In this document: piece after piece, positions 29,669 to 40,245 of the stretch
Layout of the letters: each line of letters opens with the position of its first letter
Position numbering within the stretch: the stretch's first letter is position 1
NCBI RefSeq assembly: GCF_016428595.1
Contig: NZ_JAELVQ010000001.1
Span: forward strand, 310,001-374,000
Reading direction: 5' to 3'
Origin: Snuella sedimenti
GTDB taxonomy: Bacteria; Bacteroidota; Bacteroidia; Flavobacteriales; Flavobacteriaceae
Length of the DNA stretch: 64,000 nucleotides
The notes under the pieces: generated by a model
Seen by the model: the letters and a program-made list of their open reading frames with translations, nothing else
Database searches by the model: none
Told to the model about the DNA's origin: nothing
Position numbers and translations under genes: made by a program

Positions 29669-29742
29669 AACATTATGGTAACATTCAATATAAATACTTA
29701 ATATTTAAATAACATTTTAGCGGTGTTAAACAGTTTTCTTTG
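29669..29742 (+). promoter_or_regulatory. Pho-like array and promoter of the carboxypeptidase-regulatory gene
   Basis: AAC triplets at 29669 and 29680 (11 bp apart), and AAT/AAC at 29700 and 29711 (11 bp apart), precede a -7-like box TTTCTTTG (29735-29742). The last AAC starts 24 bases before the box. The same 24-base register recurs at five other promoters of this island. Element A is inserted between this promoter and the gene start. Binding by a PhoB-type regulator is inferred from the neighbouring phosphate genes. Confidence 0.5.
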
Positions 29743-29770
29743 CAACGTATATTTACTATACCGTGTAGTT

Positions 29771-29918
29771 ATGAAACGAGCATTAAGAAATTTTAAAAAT
29801 TACTTCACAAAAGGAAATGTTTAAAATTTTTAATGAGAGAACGAGTGTAAGGAGTGGTTGCACACGTTCTTAATTTTATAATTACAATAAAATCAATTAA
29901 TTACTAAAATTTAAACGT
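29771..29918 (+). repeat. Element A copy 3 (start-codon repeat before a GTG start)
   Basis: Begins ATGAAACGAGCATTAAG with the 17-codon mini-ORF. Its hairpin arms are AGAACGAGTGT and GCACACGTTCT, pairing with one A-A mismatch and one G-U pair. The tail ends TTTAAACGT before GTGAAA, the start of the next gene. If the element ended with variable A or G and duplicated TGAAA, this would explain why some downstream genes start with ATG and others with GTG. Confidence 0.85.
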
Positions 29919-30299
29919 GTGAAACATTTGGCTTTACTTTCTTTTTTGTTGTTTACCTCTTTTTGTTTTGGACAAAACAATGGAATGATTGTTGGGAAAA
30001 TAATGGACAAAGAACTTGACAATTCCCCTTTAGTACTTGCTAACGTATCAGTTAAAGGCACCGATTTAAGAGCGAACACCGATATTACCGGACTATTCCT
30101 TATCGAAAACCTAAAAGATGGCGACTACACCTTAGTTTGTAGCTTTCTTGGCTATGAAACTAAAGAAGTTAAAGTACGTGTTCAGTCGGAAAAACCAGCC
30201 GAAGTAAAATTATCGCTAGGAGCCAGCAGTATCTCTTTGGACGACCTTGAAGCCATTACCAGTATCGCTCAAAAAGAAGACAAAACCTCTACTAATTAA
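29919..30299 (+). CDS. stand-alone carboxypeptidase-regulatory-like domain protein
   Basis: This 126-residue protein uses GTG as start. A signal peptide ending FCFGQN is followed by one CarboxypepD_reg-like beta-sandwich (GKIMDKELDNSPLVLANVSV, SFLGYETKEVKV). It is a clear paralogue of the N-terminal extension of the TonB receptor at 30892, sharing KxxDKExxNxPLxxANVxxKGT and the S.LDDLEAIT / S.LDEVVITT region. It stops where the receptor's plug would begin. It may be a regulatory partner of a receptor or a remnant of one. Its promoter carries the island's Pho-like array. Confidence 0.8.
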   Translation: MKHLALLSFLLFTSFCFGQNNGMIVGKIMDKELDNSPLVLANVSVKGTDLRANTDITGLFLIENLKDGDYTLVCSFLGYETKEVKVRVQSEKPAEVKLSLGASSISLDDLEAITSIAQKEDKTSTN

Positions 30300-30541
30300 C
30301 AAAAACACCTGCTAGTTTCTTCGACTATCTAGCAGTTTCAAACACCAAATTACATTACCAATAAAGGCAAGAAATTAGTATTAGCCTAAAACAAAAACTC
30401 CCTAAACTTTAGTCAGTATTCTGTTAATAATCGATGTATTACAACCCGTTGCGCTTGTTGGAATAAAGAATTTTTATTGAAACGAACTATCCCCAAGATT
30501 ACACCTTAAGGAATTCTTCTCGATTAAATCAGTTTCAAAAA

Positions 30542-30659
30542 TGTCAGTTCAGTGATTTTTTGATAAAAAAATCGTATCGAGAACTATTTCAAAGATTAAA
30601 ATTTTTATTCTCGATATAAATTTCACTCGTTTTAAATACAAAATTCACTTGAATTAACA
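30542..30659. repeat. Element B copy 2 (palindromic MITE-like, 118 bp)
   Basis: This is the reverse complement of the element at 28048-28165 and exactly the same length. Its ends are TGTCAGTTCAGTGA and TCACTTGAATTAACA, more worn than in copy 1. The central TATCGAGAAC and TTCTCGATA hairpin is kept. The two copies face each other across dgt and the small GTG-start gene, so recombination between them could invert that segment. Confidence 0.85.
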
Positions 30660-30792
30660 GAATTTCATTAAAGTATACTACGGTTTGCTTCTCTTTTCCT
30701 TTTCATCATTGCTATGATATGTGAGTTTGATTAAGCTTAAAACTGTCCAGTAGCCAATGTTAACTTAATGTTTTTTCACCCCAACATTACAT

Positions 30793-30868
30793 AACCTTTA
30801 CATAACTTTTATATTACCATTGTTTAACCGATTGGTAACATCCCATTCATAGTGTGTTTCGTTCTTTG
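30793..30868 (+). promoter_or_regulatory. Pho-like array and promoter of the TonB receptor gene
   Basis: AAC (or TAC) triplets start at 30793, 30804, 30815, 30826 and 30837, exactly 11 bp apart. A -7-like box GTTCTTTG is at 30861-30868, 24 bases after the last triplet. Box and downstream context (TTCTTTGCA...AAAACTAATA) match the porin promoter at 36623. Eleven-base spacing of direct repeats is how PhoB/PhoP-type regulators bind. The regulator's identity is inferred. Confidence 0.62.
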
Positions 30869-30891
30869 CACCAAGATAAAAACTAATAAGA

Positions 30892-33630
30892 ATGAAAAAC
30901 ATCACACTATTATTAATACTCTTTGTAGTATCACTTTCCAATGCTCAAACCACTGGTTCCGTGGTTGGTAAATTAACCGACAAGGAGTACAATAATGAAC
31001 CATTGGCATTTGCAAACGTACTAATTAAAGGAACCACAAAAGGAACAACTTCTGACTTTGACGGTCTATACAGTCTTGACAACCTAGAAGCTGGCGACTA
31101 TATTTTACAGTTTAGTTTTGTAGGTTACGAAACTCAAGAAATCTCAGTAACAATAGTAGCCGGTAAAGTTACAGAAGTTAATGTCCCTATGGGAGCGAGT
31201 GCCGCTTCATTAGATGAGGTTGTTATTACTACCACTACTAAACGTGAAAGTGAAACAGCTTTGTTACTGGAACAGAAGAAAGCGGTTATAATTAAAGAAA
31301 GTATTGGAGCAGAAAGACTATCTAAAATTGGAGTGTCTGACGCTTCTGGAGCTACGACAAAAATCTCAGGCGTTACAAAAAGTGAAGGTTCGGGAGATAT
31401 ATACATTAGAGGATTGGGAGATCGATACTTATCGACAACGATGAATGGTTTACCAATTCCTTCTGATGACGTTAACAATAAAAACATCAATCTAAATTTA
31501 TTCTCTACAAGTATGATAGAGAATGTAGGTATCAGCAAAACCTATGCAACATCTAGCTATGCAGACCAAAGTTCTGGCAACGTTGATATCACATCAAAAA
31601 GTTACTCTAAAAAAGAGCTTTCTGTAACACTTTCATCTGGATACAATACTAATGTAATAGGATTAAACGGTTTTAAAAGCAGTATTATGTCTGATGACGT
31701 TACTTTAGGGTTTCATAAAAAACAATACGCTTTAGTCGATTTAATAACAAGACAAAGTTGGGATCCTGTTAACACAAAAAACATTGGCAACTACGGCATA
31801 CAGTTATCAGGAGGCACTAAGTTTGACGTTTTTGGAAAACAATTAAAATTACTTGTTGCCGGAAATCACTCTAAAAGCTATACGTACCAACAAGGAATCT
31901 TTAGAACCTTCAGATCAAATATCTTAGATAACGAGTTTACAGATGTAGAACAGTATAATACGACTACAAACTCTACAGGTTACATAAACTTAAATTTAAA
32001 ACTAAACGACAACAACAAACTTAAACTAAGTAGCTTGTCGGTTAATACTAGTAACGATGTTGTTTACGAGCAAGGTAGAAATGGCGAAGGGTATGTATTC
32101 GATCAAGACCCTCAAGAAGAAGGCGCTTTTGTTAGAGACCAAAACTTCAAACAAACTATCGTTTTGGTTAACCAACTGGAAGGTAGCCATAACTTAAGTG
32201 AAAAGAATGAATTAACATGGGCTACGGGCTACAACTACGTCTTTGCCCAAGAGCCAAATAGAATTCGTAATGAAGCTAATATTTTAGATGAAAATACAGT
32301 GCAATATGCGCACGTTGGTGATTTTCAACAACGGAAATCGAGTCAAAAAATTGAAGATACCGAATACAATGCTTATATAAACGATGCTTTTGAATTTGGC
32401 AAATTGGACGAAGATGAAAACTCTCCATATAAATTAAACATAGGAGCCAATTTCCGTCAAAAAGACCGTGTATTTAGCTCTTTATTTATTGGTGTTAGAG
32501 CGCGTGGTTTCCAAGTACCTAATATTGATAGTTTTTCTGAAACATTTACACCGGATAATTTCCAAAATGGTTTGGTTTTACGTGAAAGAGATCCAGACCG
32601 CTATGATGCCGACTTAAATGTTATCGCTGGTTATGCTAACTTAGATTTTGGCATTAACAAAAAGTTTTCTGGTAATGTTGGTATTCGCTTTGAAAGGGAT
32701 GAAATCAATGTGCTTTGGGATGTTGCCAACTATGTTGGGCGCGTAGGTTCTATTAAAAAAGAATATAACAACCTTTACCCAAGTGTAAACTTAAAATATG
32801 AATTAAACGAGAAAAACGCATTACGTTTAGCATCTAGTTTAACTCAAACACTTCCTGAATTCAAGGAAATTGCACCTTTTGAGTACGTTTCACCTACAGG
32901 TCGTGTAACCAGAGGTAATCCTGACTTAGAAAAATCAGACGTACTAAACATTGATTTAAAGTATGAGTTTTTCCCGAGTAATGGTCAATTAATTTCGGCT
33001 ACAGGATTCTATAAAAACATTAAAAACCCTATCAACTTAGCACAAACCAGGGGGTCTGCAGGAATTTTTGAATACAACAATACTGGGGACAAAGCACAAG
33101 TATATGGACTTGAATTAGAAACAAGATTAGATTTAATTAAAAACGAAGAGGACAAAAGCCTTTTAGATTTTAATGCGAATCTTACCAAAATGTGGTTTAA
33201 TCAAGATTTATTTAGAGAGTATCAATACAAGGATGTTACAGAAACCGATTTACAAGGTGCTTCCGATTTAATCTTAAATGGGTCGTTAAGCTACAACAGC
33301 AATACCGAAAGAGAATTTTCTGCAACACTTACAGGTAACTATGCATCAGACAAAATCTTTGCTTTAGGATCTCCTGAAGACTTTGATAACAGCGATGTGC
33401 TTTACAACGATCAAATTATTGAAAAAGGATTTGTCACTATGGATTTAGTAGTTAGTAAAGAAATCACAAAGAAACTACAATTAAAATTTGTTGGCAGAAA
33501 CCTTTTAAACCCTAAAATTGAACAAATACAGGCTGTAAGAAATATTAGTTCTGGGGTTGAAACCATCGAAACAGTGAGTTCTTACAAGAAAGGTAGCCTA
33601 TTAAGCTTAAGCTTAAAATACACATTTTAA
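30892..33630 (+). CDS. TonB-dependent receptor with carboxypeptidase-regulatory extension
   Basis: This 912-residue outer-membrane receptor has a signal peptide (to about SLSNAQ), a CarboxypepD_reg-like domain (residues 20-110), a TonB plug with the IRGLGDRYLSTTMNGLPIPS motif, and a 22-strand barrel ending in the aromatic SLKYTF. No SusD partner follows. Instead the next gene codes for a beta-solenoid lipoprotein. Its 11-bp-periodic array, shared with the porin and PiT genes, suggests a role in taking up phosphate or an organic phosphorus compound. The substrate is not shown by the sequence. Confidence 0.9.
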   Translation: MKNITLLLILFVVSLSNAQTTGSVVGKLTDKEYNNEPLAFANVLIKGTTKGTTSDFDGLYSLDNLEAGDYILQFSFVGYETQEISVTIVAGKVTEVNVPMGASAASLDEVVITTTTKRESETALLLEQKKAVIIKESIGAERLSKIGVSDASGATTKISGVTKSEGSGDIYIRGLGDRYLSTTMNGLPIPSDDVNNKNINLNLFSTSMIENVGISKTYATSSYADQSSGNVDITSKSYSKKELSVTLSSGYNTNVIGLNGFKSSIMSDDVTLGFHKKQYALVDLITRQSWDPVNTKNIGNYGIQLSGGTKFDVFGKQLKLLVAGNHSKSYTYQQGIFRTFRSNILDNEFTDVEQYNTTTNSTGYINLNLKLNDNNKLKLSSLSVNTSNDVVYEQGRNGEGYVFDQDPQEEGAFVRDQNFKQTIVLVNQLEGSHNLSEKNELTWATGYNYVFAQEPNRIRNEANILDENTVQYAHVGDFQQRKSSQKIEDTEYNAYINDAFEFGKLDEDENSPYKLNIGANFRQKDRVFSSLFIGVRARGFQVPNIDSFSETFTPDNFQNGLVLRERDPDRYDADLNVIAGYANLDFGINKKFSGNVGIRFERDEINVLWDVANYVGRVGSIKKEYNNLYPSVNLKYELNEKNALRLASSLTQTLPEFKEIAPFEYVSPTGRVTRGNPDLEKSDVLNIDLKYEFFPSNGQLISATGFYKNIKNPINLAQTRGSAGIFEYNNTGDKAQVYGLELETRLDLIKNEEDKSLLDFNANLTKMWFNQDLFREYQYKDVTETDLQGASDLILNGSLSYNSNTEREFSATLTGNYASDKIFALGSPEDFDNSDVLYNDQIIEKGFVTMDLVVSKEITKKLQLKFVGRNLLNPKIEQIQAVRNISSGVETIETVSSYKKGSLLSLSLKYTF

Positions 33631-33635
33631 ATCAG

Positions 33636-33739
33636 TTAACATTAAGTTAACAAATAGCATTCGTCGCAAAGCAAAGGTAACCTATGTTTAATATTAGGTT
33701 AATAGTCAACAAACACTTGAGTCTTTACTTTGCGACGAA
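33636..33739 (+). promoter_or_regulatory. Pho-like array, inverted repeat and promoter before the beta-solenoid lipoprotein
   Basis: Two units, TTAACATTAAG and TTAACAAATAG, lie head to tail at 33636-33657. A second set has AAT/AAT/AAC at 33690, 33701 and 33712. The -7-like box TTACTTTG (33725-33732) starts 24 bases after the 33701 triplet. A perfect 12-bp inverted repeat, TTCGTCGCAAAG (33660-33671) and CTTTGCGACGAA (33728-33739), spans the promoter, its right arm overlapping the -7 box. The loop is long, so it looks like two opposed sites rather than a hairpin. Confidence 0.58.
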
Positions 33740-33781
33740 ATTATATACTGAAAGCGTAAACAAAAAACTAATTAAAAAAAC

Positions 33782-35833
33782 ATGAAAAAATCATTTCTAC
33801 ATTTATTCAAAGCATTTTCAGTAGCAGCCATTGCTATTGCAGCTACAAGTTGTGATTCTGACGCCCCTGCACCAATAGGCTCTGAAGACACCGAAGTAAT
33901 GAAAAACTTAGAAGCAGGTATTTTAAAAGGTGAGTTGAAAGAATCCTATACACTTAATGCTTCTGTACAATATAATTTAACAGGACAATTTACAATTCAT
34001 GATGGCGTGTCCTTAACTATTCCTGCAGGAACTAAAATTCTTGCTGATGCCAATGGAACAGATGTATATATCGCTACTTTAAAAGGTGGCCAAATTAACA
34101 TTAATGGTACTGCTGGTAATCCTGTGGTCATGTCTTCTGCTGAAGGTAACCCTGGTGACTGGGGGGGCTTAACGCTTTGTGGCAAAGCTACTACTACTGC
34201 TGGTATTGATGCTGAGGCCGAAGTTGGAGGCTTCATTTACGGTGGAACTGATGATGAAGACAGTTCAGGTATTATTAGATACTTACAAATTGTTGGTACA
34301 GGTGCTCAAATTAATCCTGAATCTCAATACAACGGAGTATCTTTCTATGCAGTTGGATCAGGTACTTTAGTAGATAATGTTGCTGTAATCAATGGATCTG
34401 ACGATGGTGTTGAATTCTTCGGTGGTACAGTATCTGTTTCTAACTTATACTTAGAAAACAACGATGATGATGCCATCGACTGGACTGAAGGATGGAATGG
34501 TTCAGTAGATAATGCATATATCTCTCATACTGTTGCTGGTTTCTCTACTGCTTTTGAGGGCGATAAAGCTAACGGCAATCCAAAATTCAATAACATTACG
34601 GCTATCTCCACTGTTGGAGGTACTGCATTACAATTTAAGAAAGAATCGGGAGGAACCATTTCTGGTTTATCTTTAAGTGGTTATGATATAGATTTAGACA
34701 TGAAAGATGGTGGAACACTTTCTAATGTGGTTTTCGTTGATGGGTATACTCCTGTTGCAATGGTTGAAGACGATAATACTACACCTGATGTAGACGAAAG
34801 CATCTATAGTTTTGCTTTAAATACAACTGTAGTTCCTACTGTAGATATCGCTGACTTTGACTGGGTAGACACAGACATATCCTTCGATAGCGCTGTATTG
34901 CAAGGAGCTGTTACCGGAGATGTAACTTTGGATGCTTCAGTAAGTTATACGTTAAACTCTTCTTATATTGTACAGTCTGGTGCTTCTTTAACAATTCCTG
35001 CAGGAACAAAAATTACTGCTAGAGCTGGTGGTACTGGTGTTTACATCGCCGTCTTACAAGGGGGTCAAATCTTTATCGAAGGAACTGAAACGAACCCTGT
35101 TGTAATCTCTTCTATCAATGCAGAAGCAGGTGACTGGGGAGGCTTAACCATTTGTGGAAATGCTACAACCTCTGCTGGTGTTGATGCTACTGCTGAAATT
35201 GGTGGTTTTATTTACGGTGGCACTAATGACGCTGATAACTCAGGTACAGTTAAAAACCTAGTAATTAAAGGTACTGGCGCTCAAATTAACTCTGAGTCAC
35301 AATACAATGGAGTGTCATTCTACGCTGTAGGTTCTGGTACTACTATAGAGAATATCGCTGTAATCAATGGTGATGACGATGGTGTTGAATTTTTTGGAGG
35401 TACGGTTTCTGTAACCAACTTATACCTAGAAAACTGTAGTGATGATGCAATTGACTGGACAGAAGGGTGGAATGGAACTGTAGACAACGCTTACATTTCT
35501 CATACAGTCGCTAACTTCTCTACTGCTTTTGAAGGAGATAAAGCTAACGGCAACCCAAAATTCAATAACATTACGGCCATCTCGACTGTTGGAGGTACTG
35601 CATTGCAGTTTAAAAAAGAATCTGGTGGAACAATTACTGGATTACACTTATCTGGTTACGATGCTGACTTAGATATGAAAGATGGTGGCGCCTTATCAAA
35701 TGTTCAAATTGCTGGATCTGATGCTGATGCTACGTTAATTTCTGGAGAAACAACTAAGTATACCTTAAATTCAGGTAAAGATGCCACTGCATTAGACATC
35801 TCGACTTGGACTTGGAAAAATGCAAGTTTATAG
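33782..35833 (+). CDS. lipoprotein with two tandem beta-solenoid units
   Basis: This 683-residue lipoprotein has its signal ending AATSC (Cys24). Two long repeats of about 275 residues each (roughly residues 50-320 and 375-645) have the short-period V-N-x-G pattern of right-handed beta-helix proteins. Many stretches are identical in both halves, such as QYNGVSFYAVGSGT and FSTAFEGDKANGNPKFNNIT. Aspartate-rich loops (NGSDDGVEFFGGT, DDDAIDWTEGWNG) could bind cations. It follows a TonB receptor and has its own Pho-like promoter, so it may be a surface partner of that receptor. Its function is unknown. Confidence 0.82.
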   Translation: MKKSFLHLFKAFSVAAIAIAATSCDSDAPAPIGSEDTEVMKNLEAGILKGELKESYTLNASVQYNLTGQFTIHDGVSLTIPAGTKILADANGTDVYIATLKGGQININGTAGNPVVMSSAEGNPGDWGGLTLCGKATTTAGIDAEAEVGGFIYGGTDDEDSSGIIRYLQIVGTGAQINPESQYNGVSFYAVGSGTLVDNVAVINGSDDGVEFFGGTVSVSNLYLENNDDDAIDWTEGWNGSVDNAYISHTVAGFSTAFEGDKANGNPKFNNITAISTVGGTALQFKKESGGTISGLSLSGYDIDLDMKDGGTLSNVVFVDGYTPVAMVEDDNTTPDVDESIYSFALNTTVVPTVDIADFDWVDTDISFDSAVLQGAVTGDVTLDASVSYTLNSSYIVQSGASLTIPAGTKITARAGGTGVYIAVLQGGQIFIEGTETNPVVISSINAEAGDWGGLTICGNATTSAGVDATAEIGGFIYGGTNDADNSGTVKNLVIKGTGAQINSESQYNGVSFYAVGSGTTIENIAVINGDDDGVEFFGGTVSVTNLYLENCSDDAIDWTEGWNGTVDNAYISHTVANFSTAFEGDKANGNPKFNNITAISTVGGTALQFKKESGGTITGLHLSGYDADLDMKDGGALSNVQIAGSDADATLISGETTKYTLNSGKDATALDISTWTWKNASL

Positions 35834-35857
35834 TCGTTAGACAAAATAACTTGATAA

Positions 35858-35897
35858 AAACACAAAAAGCATCCCGATCGGGATGCTTTTTGTGTTT
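35858..35897. terminator. bidirectional terminator after the beta-solenoid gene
   Basis: A near-perfect 40-base palindrome with the core GCATCCCGATCGGGATGC is flanked by AAACACAAAAA on the left and TTTTTGTGTTT on the right. It ends the lipoprotein gene and, from the other strand, the YwqK-like gene. Confidence 0.9.
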
Positions 35898-35910
35898 GAT
35901 GCCATTTAGT

Positions 35911-36270
35911 TTAAAATTCCGATTTTTCTTTAACCTCGGTTTCTTTTAAACCTGCTATCGCATTAGCGTCATAATCTACTTCTTTTACTGTTTCTTTGGT
36001 CCAGTAAAACCATTTGCCGACTTTCTTCCCATTATCATAATTACCTGAAACAATTTTTTTGCCTTCTGTGTTAAAACTTAACCACTCCCCTTGTAGTTTA
36101 CCATCTGTTGTGTAAGTCCCTGTTTGGCTTACAACACCATTGTCATGATAGTAAACAACCTCAATAAGGTTTGTTTCTTTATTAAATTTTAAATCTCTCT
36201 TTTGCTTTTGTTGCGCAAAAGAAACCACAGTAATGAAAAAGGCAATGAAAATTAAAACTGAATTCTTCAT
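35911..36270 (-). CDS. exported YwqK/MORN-repeat protein
   Basis: This 119-residue protein starts at the ATG at 36270. The longer frame to 36315 is rejected because a promoter -7 box (36300-36307) lies inside it. A signal peptide (IFIAFFITVVSFAQ) precedes MORN-like repeats of the YwqK family: YYHDNGVVSQTGTYTTDGKLQGEW, IVSGNYDNGKKVGKWFYW. Such proteins are often labelled antitoxins but in Bacteroidota are usually exported and of unknown role. Its promoter array suggests phosphate control along with its neighbours. Confidence 0.8.
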   Translation of the reverse strand: MKNSVLIFIAFFITVVSFAQQKQKRDLKFNKETNLIEVVYYHDNGVVSQTGTYTTDGKLQGEWLSFNTEGKKIVSGNYDNGKKVGKWFYWTKETVKEVDYDANAIAGLKETEVKEKSEF

Positions 36271-36299
36271 AATTATGGGGTTTTTAACATTTATATATC

Positions 36300-36353
36300 C
36301 AAAGATACGAAACACATAACTTTAAATCAACATTCACATAACATTAATTTAAC
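36300..36353 (-). promoter_or_regulatory. promoter and four-unit Pho-like array of the YwqK-like gene
   Basis: On the minus strand TATCTTTG (36307 to 36300) is a perfect -7 box. Upstream on that strand GTT triplets begin at 36353, 36342, 36331 and 36320, all 11 bp apart; the 36331 triplet starts 24 bases before the box. Read on the plus strand these are AAC at 36318, 36329, 36340 and 36351. The register matches the other promoters but the orientation of the unit is reversed. Confidence 0.58.
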
Positions 36354-36431
36354 ATTAAGATTGCAGTCCTCTGTTTTAAAAATATTTACACAAAAGAAGA
36401 CTACATAGTATTAATTAATAATTAGTTAATG

Positions 36432-36580
36432 TTAACATTACATTCACATTACTTTCAACCCTGATATTTGTTATGTCTTAAGACTAAACAATTAGTTTGT
36501 CATATAATCTATTAGTTTTTGTCGACTACATTATTATGATTTCTAATGAGGACTGCCTTGGCCAAGGCAGTCTTTTTTTA
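36432..36580 (+). ncRNA. candidate Pho-associated small RNA
   Basis: A strong rho-independent terminator at 36551-36579 has no plus-strand gene before it back to the terminated gene at 35833. Upstream lie TTAACATTACA and TTCACATTACT (36432-36453) and a -7-like box GATATTTG (36463-36470), identical to the box of the PiT promoter. A transcript from about 36477 to 36579 would be roughly 100 bases. It contains no convincing ORF; the longest frame is 15 codons and runs into the terminator. The array-to-box spacing is 18, not 24, so the promoter is the weaker part of the argument. Confidence 0.5.
36551..36579 (+). terminator. orphan intrinsic terminator
   Basis: GACTGCCTTG and CAAGGCAGTC are perfect arms around GC, followed by seven T. 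No A run lies on the left, so it acts on the plus strand only. No protein gene feeds into it, which is the main evidence for a small RNA upstream. Confidence 0.9.
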
Positions 36581-36585
36581 TAAGT

Positions 36586-36630
36586 TTAACAATTAGGAAA
36601 CATTAAGTTAACATTAAGATTGGTTCTTTG
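36586..36630 (+). promoter_or_regulatory. Pho-like array and promoter of the porin gene
   Basis: Three head-to-tail 11-bp units, TTAACAATTAG, GAAACATTAAG and TTAACATTAAG (36586-36618), are followed by ATTG and the -7-like box GTTCTTTG (36623-36630). The triplet at 36599 starts 24 bases before the box. This is the cleanest array in the window, and its gene belongs to a family best known for phosphate-selective porins. Period and sequence resemble PhoP boxes of Bacillus (TTAACA units every 11 bp). Confidence 0.7.
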
Positions 36631-36652
36631 CAGCGACAAAAACTAATACTTG

Positions 36653-37864
36653 ATGAAAACTAAAATTATCCATGTGGTAATTGTCTGTTTAGCAATTACT
36701 TCATTGAGCGCTCAAGAGATAAAAGCCTCAAAATTTGGAAAAGGACTTCTTAATATTGTAGGTGAAGATAGCACCTGGACCATGAAAGTAGGCTTGCGAA
36801 TGCAACTTCTTGGGTCTTCAATCTGGGAAGATCACGCCTCTAATGAAACCAGTTTTTTAGCCCGAAGAGCGCGTTTAAAATTCGATGGTTTTGCGTTTAG
36901 CCCAAAACTAAAATACAAAATAGAGCTTGGGTTATCCAATCGAGACCAATCTGGTGCTTCTGAGTTTACGCACAATGCTCCCAGGTATATCTTAGATGCC
37001 ATGCTTAAATGGAATTTCTATGAAAATTTTGAAATATGGTTTGGTCAAGGCAAATTACCTGGTAATAGAGAACGTGTTATTTCTTCTGGTGACCTACAAC
37101 AAGTAGATCGCTCCTTATTGAATAGCCGATTTACTATAGATCGCGATTTTGGTTTTCAATTACGCCACCATTTCAATCTTACAAACACATTTGTTGTAAA
37201 AGAAATATTCTCCTTGGCACAGGGTGAAGGGCGGAACGTAACAACTGGCAATTTAGGAGGCTACCAATATACCGGACGTATTGAGTTGCTACCTATGGGC
37301 AACTTTTCCAATAGCAAAGGCGATTACAAAGGAGCTGATTTAAAAAGGGAAAAAACACCCAAACTAGCTATTGGCGTTAGCTACGATCACAACAATAATG
37401 CAGTAAAAACCAGAAGTAACCAAGGGTCTTATATGGTAACCGATACCGGATTTTTTGAAACTAACATTAACACCTTCTTTGCAGATGCCATGTTCAAGTA
37501 CAACGGATTTTCATTAATGGCCGAATACGCCGATAGGGATGCCAAAGATCCTTTTGCCAAAAATTCTGATGGCTCTCCTTTACTGGATAGCAAAGGAAAT
37601 CAAGTTACTGTTCAAGTGGGTAAAGGTTTAAACATTCAAACTGGTTATTTGTTCCCTTCAAACTGGGAAATATCGGGACGTTATACTTCAGTAAAATTAG
37701 ACAAGGCAATAACTGGAAAAAATCCGGAAAAACAATATACTTTAGGAATTTCTAAATATATTGTAGGACACAAGTTAAAAGTGCAAACAGATATAAGCCA
37801 TTTAGCCGTTACTAACGGCAATAATGAATTAATGTACCGATTGCAGTTTGACATACACTTCTAA
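36653..37864 (+). CDS. phosphate-selective porin O/P family protein
   Basis: The 403-residue outer-membrane porin starts at the ATG at 36653, with a signal peptide ending SLSAQE. The beta-rich body has porin O/P features: LNIVGEDSTWTMKVGLRMQ, FLARRARLKFDGFAFSPKLKYKIELGLSNRD, a FGQGKLPGNRERV segment and a final barrel strand MYRLQFDIHF. Members of this family admit phosphate or polyphosphate in Pseudomonas. The PiT transporter follows 77 bases later, and the triple Pho-like array before it fits phosphate control. Bacteroidota members may have other anion substrates. Confidence 0.88.
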   Translation: MKTKIIHVVIVCLAITSLSAQEIKASKFGKGLLNIVGEDSTWTMKVGLRMQLLGSSIWEDHASNETSFLARRARLKFDGFAFSPKLKYKIELGLSNRDQSGASEFTHNAPRYILDAMLKWNFYENFEIWFGQGKLPGNRERVISSGDLQQVDRSLLNSRFTIDRDFGFQLRHHFNLTNTFVVKEIFSLAQGEGRNVTTGNLGGYQYTGRIELLPMGNFSNSKGDYKGADLKREKTPKLAIGVSYDHNNNAVKTRSNQGSYMVTDTGFFETNINTFFADAMFKYNGFSLMAEYADRDAKDPFAKNSDGSPLLDSKGNQVTVQVGKGLNIQTGYLFPSNWEISGRYTSVKLDKAITGKNPEKQYTLGISKYIVGHKLKVQTDISHLAVTNGNNELMYRLQFDIHF

Positions 37865-37877
37865 CTAAAAAAAACAT

Positions 37878-37920
37878 AACAATAACTTAACACAACAAAC
37901 AAAAACACTAAGGATATTTG
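37878..37920 (+). promoter_or_regulatory. Pho-like promoter of the PiT gene
   Basis: ATAAC (AAC at 37878) and TTAAC (AAC at 37889) are 11 bp apart. The -7-like box GATATTTG (37913-37920) starts 24 bases after the second triplet, the same register as the other island promoters. The array is weaker than that of the porin gene, and read-through from the porin is also possible. Confidence 0.5.
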
Positions 37921-37941
37921 CAAACTATTTTAAATTAAATT

Positions 37942-40245
37942 ATGGAAAATATATATTTATATATGATAATAGCCTTAGCTATTTTAGCAATTGCTGATTT
38001 AGTTGTAGGTGTTAGTAACGATGCCGTGAATTTTTTAAATTCAGCCATAGGCTCGAAAGCTATTTCCTTTAAAACCATTATGATTGTTGCCAGTTTAGGT
38101 GTTGCTGTAGGCGCTGTATTCTCAAGTGGTATGATGGAGGTTGCCAGAAAAGGGATATTTAACCCAGGTGAATTCATGTTTAATGAGATCATGATTATTT
38201 TCCTAGCGGTTATGATAACGGACATTTTGTTACTCGATTTCTTTAACTCAGTAGGTATGCCAACGTCGACAACTGTTTCGATAGTTTTCGAACTATTAGG
38301 TGCGGCTGTAGCAATGGCTTTAATTAAAATAGGTCATGACAATGGCAACTTTTCGGACGTTATAAATTATATCAATACCTCTAAAGCATCCCAAATTATA
38401 TTTGGGATACTGCTCTCGGTGGTCGTCGCATTTTCAATTGGAGCCATAGTACAATGGTTTTCCAGACTTTTACTGTCCTATAATTTTCAAAATAAAGCCA
38501 ACTGGGTTGGTGGACTATTTGGAGGCATTGCTTTGACTGCCATTACTTACTTTATTTTCATGAAAGGATTAAAGGGAACCTCATACGCTAAAGAGTCTTT
38601 CGATATTTTAGGAGGCAGAACCATGAAAGATTTCCTGGAATCAGAGGTGTTAACAATCGTATTGATTAGTTCTGTATTTTGGTCATTGCTTTCTTATGCG
38701 CTAATTACTTTCTTTAAAACCAATATCTACAAGTTAATTATTATCGTAGGCACCTTTGCCTTGGCATTAGCTTTTGCCGGTAACGATTTGGTAAACTTTA
38801 TAGGTGTTCCTGTTGCCGCTTACAATGCATTTGTAGAATGGTCTGCATCGGGTATTGCAGCTACAGCATTCCCTATGGATGTTCTAGCAGAAAAAGTCCC
38901 TACTAATAACTTATTATTATTTGGTGCCGGAGTGGTAATGGTATTAACGCTATGGTTTTCCTCAAAATCAAAAGACGTTGTTAAAACCTCATTAGACTTA
39001 TCAAGTCAAGGTGACACGAAAGAGCGTTTCCAACCAAACTTTTTGTCTCGTAGTTTTGTAAGAACAGCTATGCTTATGTCGCAAATGTCTTCATACATGC
39101 TACCTAAATCTTGGCAAGAGAAAATTGACAAACAGTTTGAGGCACCGGTTATCACTCTTAATAAAGACAAAAAATACGAACTACCGGCTTTCGATTTGGT
39201 TCGAGCTGCTGTTAACCTAATGGTAGCCGCAGTTTTAATTTCTATTGCTACTTCTTATAAGTTACCTTTATCTACCACTTATGTAACGTTTATGGTGGCC
39301 ATGGGGTCGTCTCTTGCTGATCGGGCTTGGGGCGCCGAAAGTGCGGTTTATAGAGTTGCCGGCGTTATAAATGTAATTGGCGGCTGGTTCTTTACTGCAT
39401 TAAGCGCCTTTAGTGCTGCTGCGCTAGTTGCTTATTTATTGAACTTAAACATAAATGTTATGTTCCCTATCTTATTATTGGCCGCTTTCGGGCTTTTAAT
39501 AAGAAGTTCTATTGCACATAGCAAACGCGCTAAGGAAGCCAAGGCTGAAGATAGTTTAACAAAAGCCGAAAGCAGTTCTATACAAGGGGTTATACATGAA
39601 AGTGCAGGCAACATTGCAAACGTTGTGATGCGCGGTAATAAAATATATACCAATGCCATTAACGGTCTTGCCAAACAAGACCTTATCCTACTTAAAAAGA
39701 ACAAAAAGCAAATCCTTAAACTATCTAACGAAGTTGACGATTTACGTGACAATATCTTCTATTTTATTAAAAACTTAGATGAATCCAGTGTTGGGGCAAG
39801 TAATTTCTACATCCACATTTTAGGATATTTACAAGATATGGTACAATCGTTAGAATACATCACCAAGGTTAGCCATAAACACGTAAACAACAACCATAAA
39901 AAGCTAAAATTCAATCAAATTAAGGAATTGAAAGAAGTCGATGCACGTTTTGAACTTTTATTTAACAATACCAAAACTGCTTTTGAATCGCGCTCTTTTG
40001 AAGAAATAGGTGTTATTTTAAGTCGAAAAGCCGAAATAACTACTTTGGTAACCGATAAAATTAAAAGACAGGTAGAACGGACACGTACCGAGGAATCCAG
40101 TCCAAAGAACACGACTTTATACTTTAGTCTTTTATTGGAAACCAAAGATTTATTAACAGCAACTATGAATCTTTTAGACGAATATTACAACGCGCACGAT
40201 AGTTCTGTTAAACCAGCTACCATCACTTCAGAATCTGAAGAATAG
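37942..40245 (+). CDS. PiT-family inorganic phosphate transporter with PhoU-like C-terminus
   Basis: This 767-residue inner-membrane protein has the two PiT signatures: GVSNDAVNFLNSAIGS near residue 24 and the matching LAFAGNDLVNFIGVPVAA in the second half, each with SxxTxxV motifs (MPTSTTVSIVFELLG; PLSTTYVTFMVAMGS). About ten helices occupy residues 1-520. The cytoplasmic C-terminal 220 residues are helical and resemble PhoU, a fusion common in Bacteroidota. It imports phosphate with a cation. Ends at a strong terminator. Confidence 0.92.
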   Translation: MENIYLYMIIALAILAIADLVVGVSNDAVNFLNSAIGSKAISFKTIMIVASLGVAVGAVFSSGMMEVARKGIFNPGEFMFNEIMIIFLAVMITDILLLDFFNSVGMPTSTTVSIVFELLGAAVAMALIKIGHDNGNFSDVINYINTSKASQIIFGILLSVVVAFSIGAIVQWFSRLLLSYNFQNKANWVGGLFGGIALTAITYFIFMKGLKGTSYAKESFDILGGRTMKDFLESEVLTIVLISSVFWSLLSYALITFFKTNIYKLIIIVGTFALALAFAGNDLVNFIGVPVAAYNAFVEWSASGIAATAFPMDVLAEKVPTNNLLLFGAGVVMVLTLWFSSKSKDVVKTSLDLSSQGDTKERFQPNFLSRSFVRTAMLMSQMSSYMLPKSWQEKIDKQFEAPVITLNKDKKYELPAFDLVRAAVNLMVAAVLISIATSYKLPLSTTYVTFMVAMGSSLADRAWGAESAVYRVAGVINVIGGWFFTALSAFSAAALVAYLLNLNINVMFPILLLAAFGLLIRSSIAHSKRAKEAKAEDSLTKAESSSIQGVIHESAGNIANVVMRGNKIYTNAINGLAKQDLILLKKNKKQILKLSNEVDDLRDNIFYFIKNLDESSVGASNFYIHILGYLQDMVQSLEYITKVSHKHVNNNHKKLKFNQIKELKEVDARFELLFNNTKTAFESRSFEEIGVILSRKAEITTLVTDKIKRQVERTRTEESSPKNTTLYFSLLLETKDLLTATMNLLDEYYNAHDSSVKPATITSESEE

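Follow-up and report, generated by a model that had tools for sequence, protein, structure and literature searches.

The PhoP boxes of Bacillus subtilis are TTAACA-like 6-mers repeated with an 11-bp period. The same word and period, in a different phylum, with another promoter type and other targets, recur in the arrays described here, which precede six genes in a 64,000-nt stretch of the Snuella sedimenti genome (contig NZ_JAELVQ010000001.1, positions 310,001 to 374,000; hereafter the window, whose coordinates are used unless a locus is named). PHO boxes consist of 11-nt direct repeats, with a consensus that varies from species to species (PMC4415409), and those of Escherichia coli overlap the −35 element and place PhoB next to sigma (PMC3348028). 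Our arrays share with the E. coli PHO box the tandem 11-nt direct repeats over the −35 region and the position before pst and other phosphate genes (PMC4415409, PMC3348028), but differ from it in their word (TTAACAT, not CTGTCAT), in their anchoring on the Bacteroidota −7 box, in having conserved reversed copies and in occurring mostly in genomes without PstS.

In Flavobacterium johnsoniae, the PhoBR cluster Fjoh_0541–0549 contains the same receptor, lipoprotein, porin, phoB, phoR and glycosyltransferase gene types, and phosphate depletion raises the receptor Fjoh_0545 by 8.0 log2 and the lipoprotein that follows it, Fjoh_0546, by 9.9 log2, beside phoBR, with phoB itself up by 3.1 log2 (PMC8115612). 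The text of that study contains none of the terms ‘Pho box’, ‘promoter’ and ‘motif’, and describes no operator. In Riemerella anatipestifer, from the same bacterial class, a protein named PhoP has a DNA affinity purification sequencing (DAP-seq) motif with the core TTTAACA, the core word found here, and binds upstream of its own operon; the accessible part of that source gives 583 peaks and reports no 11-bp architecture, −7 distance or phosphate genes, and the protein may be RprY (PMC9603813). No Bacteroidota PHO box with its promoter geometry is described in the literature searched, coverage of which was incomplete. Comparative sequence analysis leads us to propose that the arrays are very probably the PHO boxes of Flavobacteriaceae, read by PhoB.

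An 11-bp comb in register with the −7 box

The arrays stand before genes for a small protein with a signal peptide (29919), a TonB-dependent receptor (30892), a lipoprotein (33782), a MORN_2-repeat protein (36270, minus strand), a porin (36653) and a PiT transporter (37942). A preliminary description of the window held that all six promoters share one layout, in which a unit triplet starts 24 bases before a −7 box within an 11-bp comb. Read on the sequence with coordinates checked, the distance and the comb hold in six of six promoters (Table 1); the layout itself is common to the five forward promoters, whereas the array before 36270 runs reversed relative to its gene. Counted back from the −7 box, unit triplets begin at 13, 24, 35, 46, 57 or 68 bases, in one helical register. 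A gapless alignment of the five forward promoters leaves TTTGC and, in two successive units, TAA invariant. Scans of the window with the sigma-70 consensus and with Rfam returned nothing relevant. Against dinucleotide shuffles, a loosely defined comb was significant for the promoters of 30892 (p = 0.0002), 33782 (p = 0.0006), 36270 (p = 0.0002) and 36653 (p = 0.003), and not significant alone for those of 29919 (p = 0.05) and 37942 (p = 0.06). We accept the latter two because their units are conserved in orthologues: 8/8 and 11/17 orthologous promoters, respectively, have AAC 28 bases before TTTG, which corresponds to 24 before the box.

The comb extends well beyond the window. The lipoprotein is present in 107 of 120 Flavobacteriaceae genera, and loci of 37 other genera have either the order receptor, lipoprotein, sometimes a reversed MORN gene, porin and PiT, or a receptor–lipoprotein pair adjoining phoBR. 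The loci analysed do not include F. johnsoniae, for which F. limi, F. hibernum and F. pectinovorum served as stand-ins. Counted per promoter, AAC pairs 11 bp apart number 1.63 for the receptor, 1.40 for the porin and 0.95 for PiT, compared with 0.17 in control promoters taken from the same loci (n = 114); pairs at other distances mostly number 0.05–0.4 per promoter, apart from the expected signal at the multiples 22 and 33. MORN promoters carry 1.48 GTT pairs at 11 bp (23 genomes). Modulo 11, the distances from unit to TTTG fall into one register for 76/78 receptor, 45/53 porin, 30/38 PiT and 32/51 MORN (GTT) measurements; orthologous promoters are not independent, but about five unrelated promoter classes share this register. 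A second set of 74 named receptor promoters, fetched separately and with about three sharing a contig with the first set, places 187 of 297 AAC offsets in the same register.

Conservation is concentrated in the units. In receptor promoters, unit bases reach up to 2 bits and most spacer bases 0.1–0.4, and the C of AAC at the best unit is 94–100% conserved. Lipoprotein promoters have AAC at 50 and AAT at 39 bases before TTTG in 14 of the 20 orthologues with a box. Orthologues of the 29919 gene add AAT at 39 (6/8) and AAC at 61 and 72 (6/8 and 5/8), and PiT orthologues have AAC at 39 in 13/17.

These patterns also bear on whether the comb might be phased AT-rich DNA, acting through curvature or a nucleoid protein, instead of an operator. 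The units are indeed AT-rich and phased near the helical repeat. However, the conserved C, the retention of the comb at loci with 43–47% GC (L067, L069, L075) and the lack of a comb in the 114 control promoters make such an origin very unlikely.

Table 1. Arrays, −7 boxes and genes, in window coordinates
Feature	Position	Strand	Details
29919-gene promoter	29669–29743	+	AAT 29700 and AAC 29711 in register; upstream AAC pair 29669/29680 two bases out of register with the box; −7 box TTTCTTTGC 29735–29743
Small protein	29919–30299	+	Signal peptide and CarboxypepD_reg domain, the domain at the N terminus of the next receptor
Receptor array	30793–30869	+	AAC 30793, 30804, TAC 30815, AAC 30826, 30837; −7 box GTTCTTTGC 30861–30869
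TonB-dependent receptor	30892–33630	+	PF07715, PF13715, PF14905; homologue of Fjoh_0545, with the same three domains
Perfect pair TTAACATTAAGTTAACA	33635–33651	+	In the gap separating the receptor gene from the lipoprotein gene; not in register with the −7 box; weak profile match (E 0.3)
Lipoprotein-gene array	33679–33733	+	AAC 33679, AAT 33690, AAT 33701; −7 box TTACTTTGC 33725–33733
Lipoprotein	33782–35833	+	Internal duplication; no Pfam match; likely homologue of Fjoh_0546
MORN_2-repeat protein	35911–36270	−	Match below the Pfam cut-off
MORN-gene array, reversed	36300–36353	−	GTT 36320, 36331 (unit 24 bases before the box), 36342, 36353, GTT read towards the gene; −7 box TATCTTTG 36307–36300
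Porin array	36586–36631	+	AAC 36588, 36599 (unit 24 bases before the box), 36610; −7 box GTTCTTTGC 36623–36631
Porin	36653–37864	+	Porin_O_P family (Pfam)
PiT-gene array	37878–37921	+	AAC 37878, 37889; −7 box GATATTTGC 37913–37921
PiT-type phosphate transporter	37942–40245	+	PHO4, PF01384 (Pfam)

A candidate PhoB operator before phosphate genes

Several lines of evidence tie the arrays to phosphate and to PhoB. First, the two genes that the preliminary description took for a porin and a PiT transporter are confirmed as such by Pfam.

Second, a profile of the whole promoter picks out these sites genome-wide. The profile spans 48 positions and derives from 52 promoters in other genera, with the window left out; its E-values are rough. 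Its three best matches in the 4.37-Mb genome of S. sedimenti are the porin (E 9.6e-10), receptor (7e-6) and PiT (0.003) promoters, followed more weakly by the small-gene, lipoprotein and MORN-intergenic sites, and the sole sensible match outside the window lies 117–82 bases before phoB. Sixteen other genomes were scanned too, many of them sources of training promoters; most of their strong matches outside the cluster fall on porin, PiT and small-gene promoters or on reversed arrays preceding MORN genes. For the six named Flavobacterium genomes, all absent from the training set, the top match is in every case the receptor promoter divergent from phoB. Weak matches outside the cluster (E > 0.1) are mostly intragenic or before unrelated genes, and we treated them as chance.

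The word on its own behaves differently. The genome-wide enrichment put forward earlier as a check, taken in its simplest form as a count of TTAAC pairs at 11-bp spacing, failed to appear: bare TTAAC-N6-TTAAC occurs 28 times in the S. sedimenti genome, against 43 for a reversed control pattern, and a genome scan with TAAC-N7-TAAC-N25-TTTG likewise gave no enrichment over its reversed pattern. The signal is therefore the array anchored on the −7 box, not the word, and only the full profile anchored on that box is specific.

Third, arrays mark most pstS loci. PstS (TIGR02136) is found in 10 of 120 genera and is missing from the S. sedimenti genome. At eight of nine clear pstS loci, an array with E < 1e-4 precedes the gene ahead of pstS (one of these eight promoters, from genome G007, is in the training set); six of the eight genes are porin orthologues with 53–66% identity, and one more is a Porin_O_P member by Pfam. 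Two pstS loci have a second array directly before pstS. An island in F. flevense unites pstSCAB-phoU, porin, phoR, phoB, receptor and lipoprotein genes, with arrays before pstS, the receptor and the lipoprotein, the pstS array having its AAC 28 bases before TTTG. An array was thus found where the preliminary description would have it, before phosphate genes, in the case of pstS and of phoB. No array was seen before the glycosyltransferase gene adjoining phoBR (Fjoh_0541-like).

Taken with the comb and register in 37 other genera and the induction of Fjoh_0545 and Fjoh_0546 (PMC8115612), the window-free profile, the receptor promoters beside phoB and the pstS arrays support the PhoB-like regulon signal that had been suggested from the window alone. 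The arrays have at least two 11-nt direct-repeat units, an overlap with the −35/−33 region at a fixed distance from the −7 box and a place before phosphate genes, and PhoB and PhoR are encoded. The E. coli core CTGTCAT is replaced by TTAACAT, which is no disqualifier because the consensus of PHO boxes varies with species (PMC4415409).

The operator would consist of two to six 11-bp units of approximately TTAACAT-N4, arranged head to tail, for tandem dimers of the OmpR-family regulator PhoB; such dimers, aligned along a single face of the helix, would require the fixed register. In F. psychrophilum the −7 box spans −12 to −5 (PMC9723704), so the unit 24 bases upstream should fall at about −36, the place of the −33 element. 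In low phosphate, PhoR would phosphorylate PhoB, dimers of which would fill the array, with the unit 24 bases upstream covering the place of the −33 element. RNA polymerase would thereby be brought to a promoter that is weak on its own, much as PhoB acts over the −35 region in E. coli.

Regulator and orientation

Several observations weigh against the PHO-box explanation. The arrays before MORN genes and phoB run reversed. PhoX (PF05787) promoters lack convincing arrays. In F. johnsoniae the porin Fjoh_0542 is not raised by low phosphate (PMC8115612). Array-like matches occur in two genomes without a PhoB hit, G048 (82% complete) and G055 (86%), where the PhoB sequence may be missing. Finally, another regulator, RprY, may bind a word related to the array unit.

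The genome of S. sedimenti encodes only two OmpR-family regulators, PhoB with PhoR (L083) and RprY with RprX (L102). The PhoB/PhoR locus (L083 8021–9744) has PhoB (TIGR02154) as its best NCBIfam match, below the equivalog cut-off. Across genera, PhoB is present in 115 of 120 and co-occurs with the lipoprotein (Fisher p 4e-4), an association inflated by small and incomplete genomes. Two near-complete genomes that lack PhoB, G023 and G116, have no good array, their best profile E-values being just 0.046 and 0.36.

RprY, as the sole other OmpR-family response regulator, could in principle read the arrays, alone or in competition with PhoB, and the phosphate genes would then form an RprXY regulon. 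The rprX promoter has a conserved TTTAACATTTTTGTTAATGTAAGGTTAA element about 100 bases upstream in most of 30 genera (L321–L350), which is related to the arrays but built differently and is possibly an autoregulatory site of RprY. The R. anatipestifer PhoP may be RprY, as an earlier paper puts the kinase gene first and finds elevated pstS in the mutant (PMC5399024), although that system is also reported to rise in phosphate starvation. The arrays, however, are syntenic with phoBR and pst and not with rprXY, they mark phosphate genes, and G023 has RprX, no PhoB and no good array; PhoB and RprY share just 35% identity. We consider control by RprY unlikely, and PhoB very probably the reader.

The reversed arrays raise a further question about PhoB itself. 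The arrays might all be PhoB operators, with the reversed ones, before the MORN gene and phoB (L083 7905–7939), repressing or acting in some other way, so that not all six promoters would be activated by PhoB; we put this at somewhat below an even chance. In its favour, the reversal is conserved at MORN_2-repeat genes, including those that lie well away from the phosphate cluster (L196, L197, L198, L204, L315), and tandem-PhoB activation at −35 has been modelled with a defined orientation (PMC3348028). On the other side, relative to their −7 box the MORN arrays stand in the register of the forward arrays (the 32/51 distances above), and the MORN gene travels with the phosphate cluster. A repressor-site reading of the reversed arrays is a refinement of the PHO-box explanation, not a full alternative to it.

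Units of the GTWAAT type at 11-bp spacing also precede an unannotated open reading frame of about 40–45 aa in three genera (L200 4945–5061, L201 near 4660, L202 4510–4647). It lies between RsmG-like and DinB-like genes, and its products share a C-terminal pattern resembling K.(Y/C)R(R/H/K)(A/S)Y.

Genes behind the arrays and phosphate sensing

In the window and in L064, L065, L086, L088 and L094, a free-standing CarboxypepD_reg domain with a signal peptide precedes the receptor, which contains that domain too; the small gene has a separate promoter of the receptor type, with units at 72, 61, 39 and 28. In the window, a 175-base leader (29744–29918) separates the −7 box of the small gene from its start and contains a hairpin-like AGAACGAGTGT...ACACGTTCT followed by TAATTTT, with no Rfam match; in other genera, unlike here, the gene sits close behind its box. 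The duplication in the lipoprotein spans about 350 aa per copy, and the length of the protein across genera ranges from about 380 to more than 1000 aa (window 33782–35833; L079).

As PhoB is found in 115 of 120 genera and PstS in 10, phosphate sensing by PhoR must in most cases do without Pst, and may run through PiT or through the array-marked outer-membrane receptor, porin and lipoprotein. PhoBR in Flavobacteriaceae thus works mostly without the Pst system. Tentatively, we picture one word used in two conserved orientations and a single register: forward arrays would switch uptake on, and reversed arrays (MORN, phoB and the tiny reading frame) would give a second output, either repression or RprY cross-talk, with PhoBR mostly operating without Pst. 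With a PHO box for Bacteroidota, sequence would suffice to predict the Pho regulons of the many flavobacteria that live in soil, in the sea or with plants.

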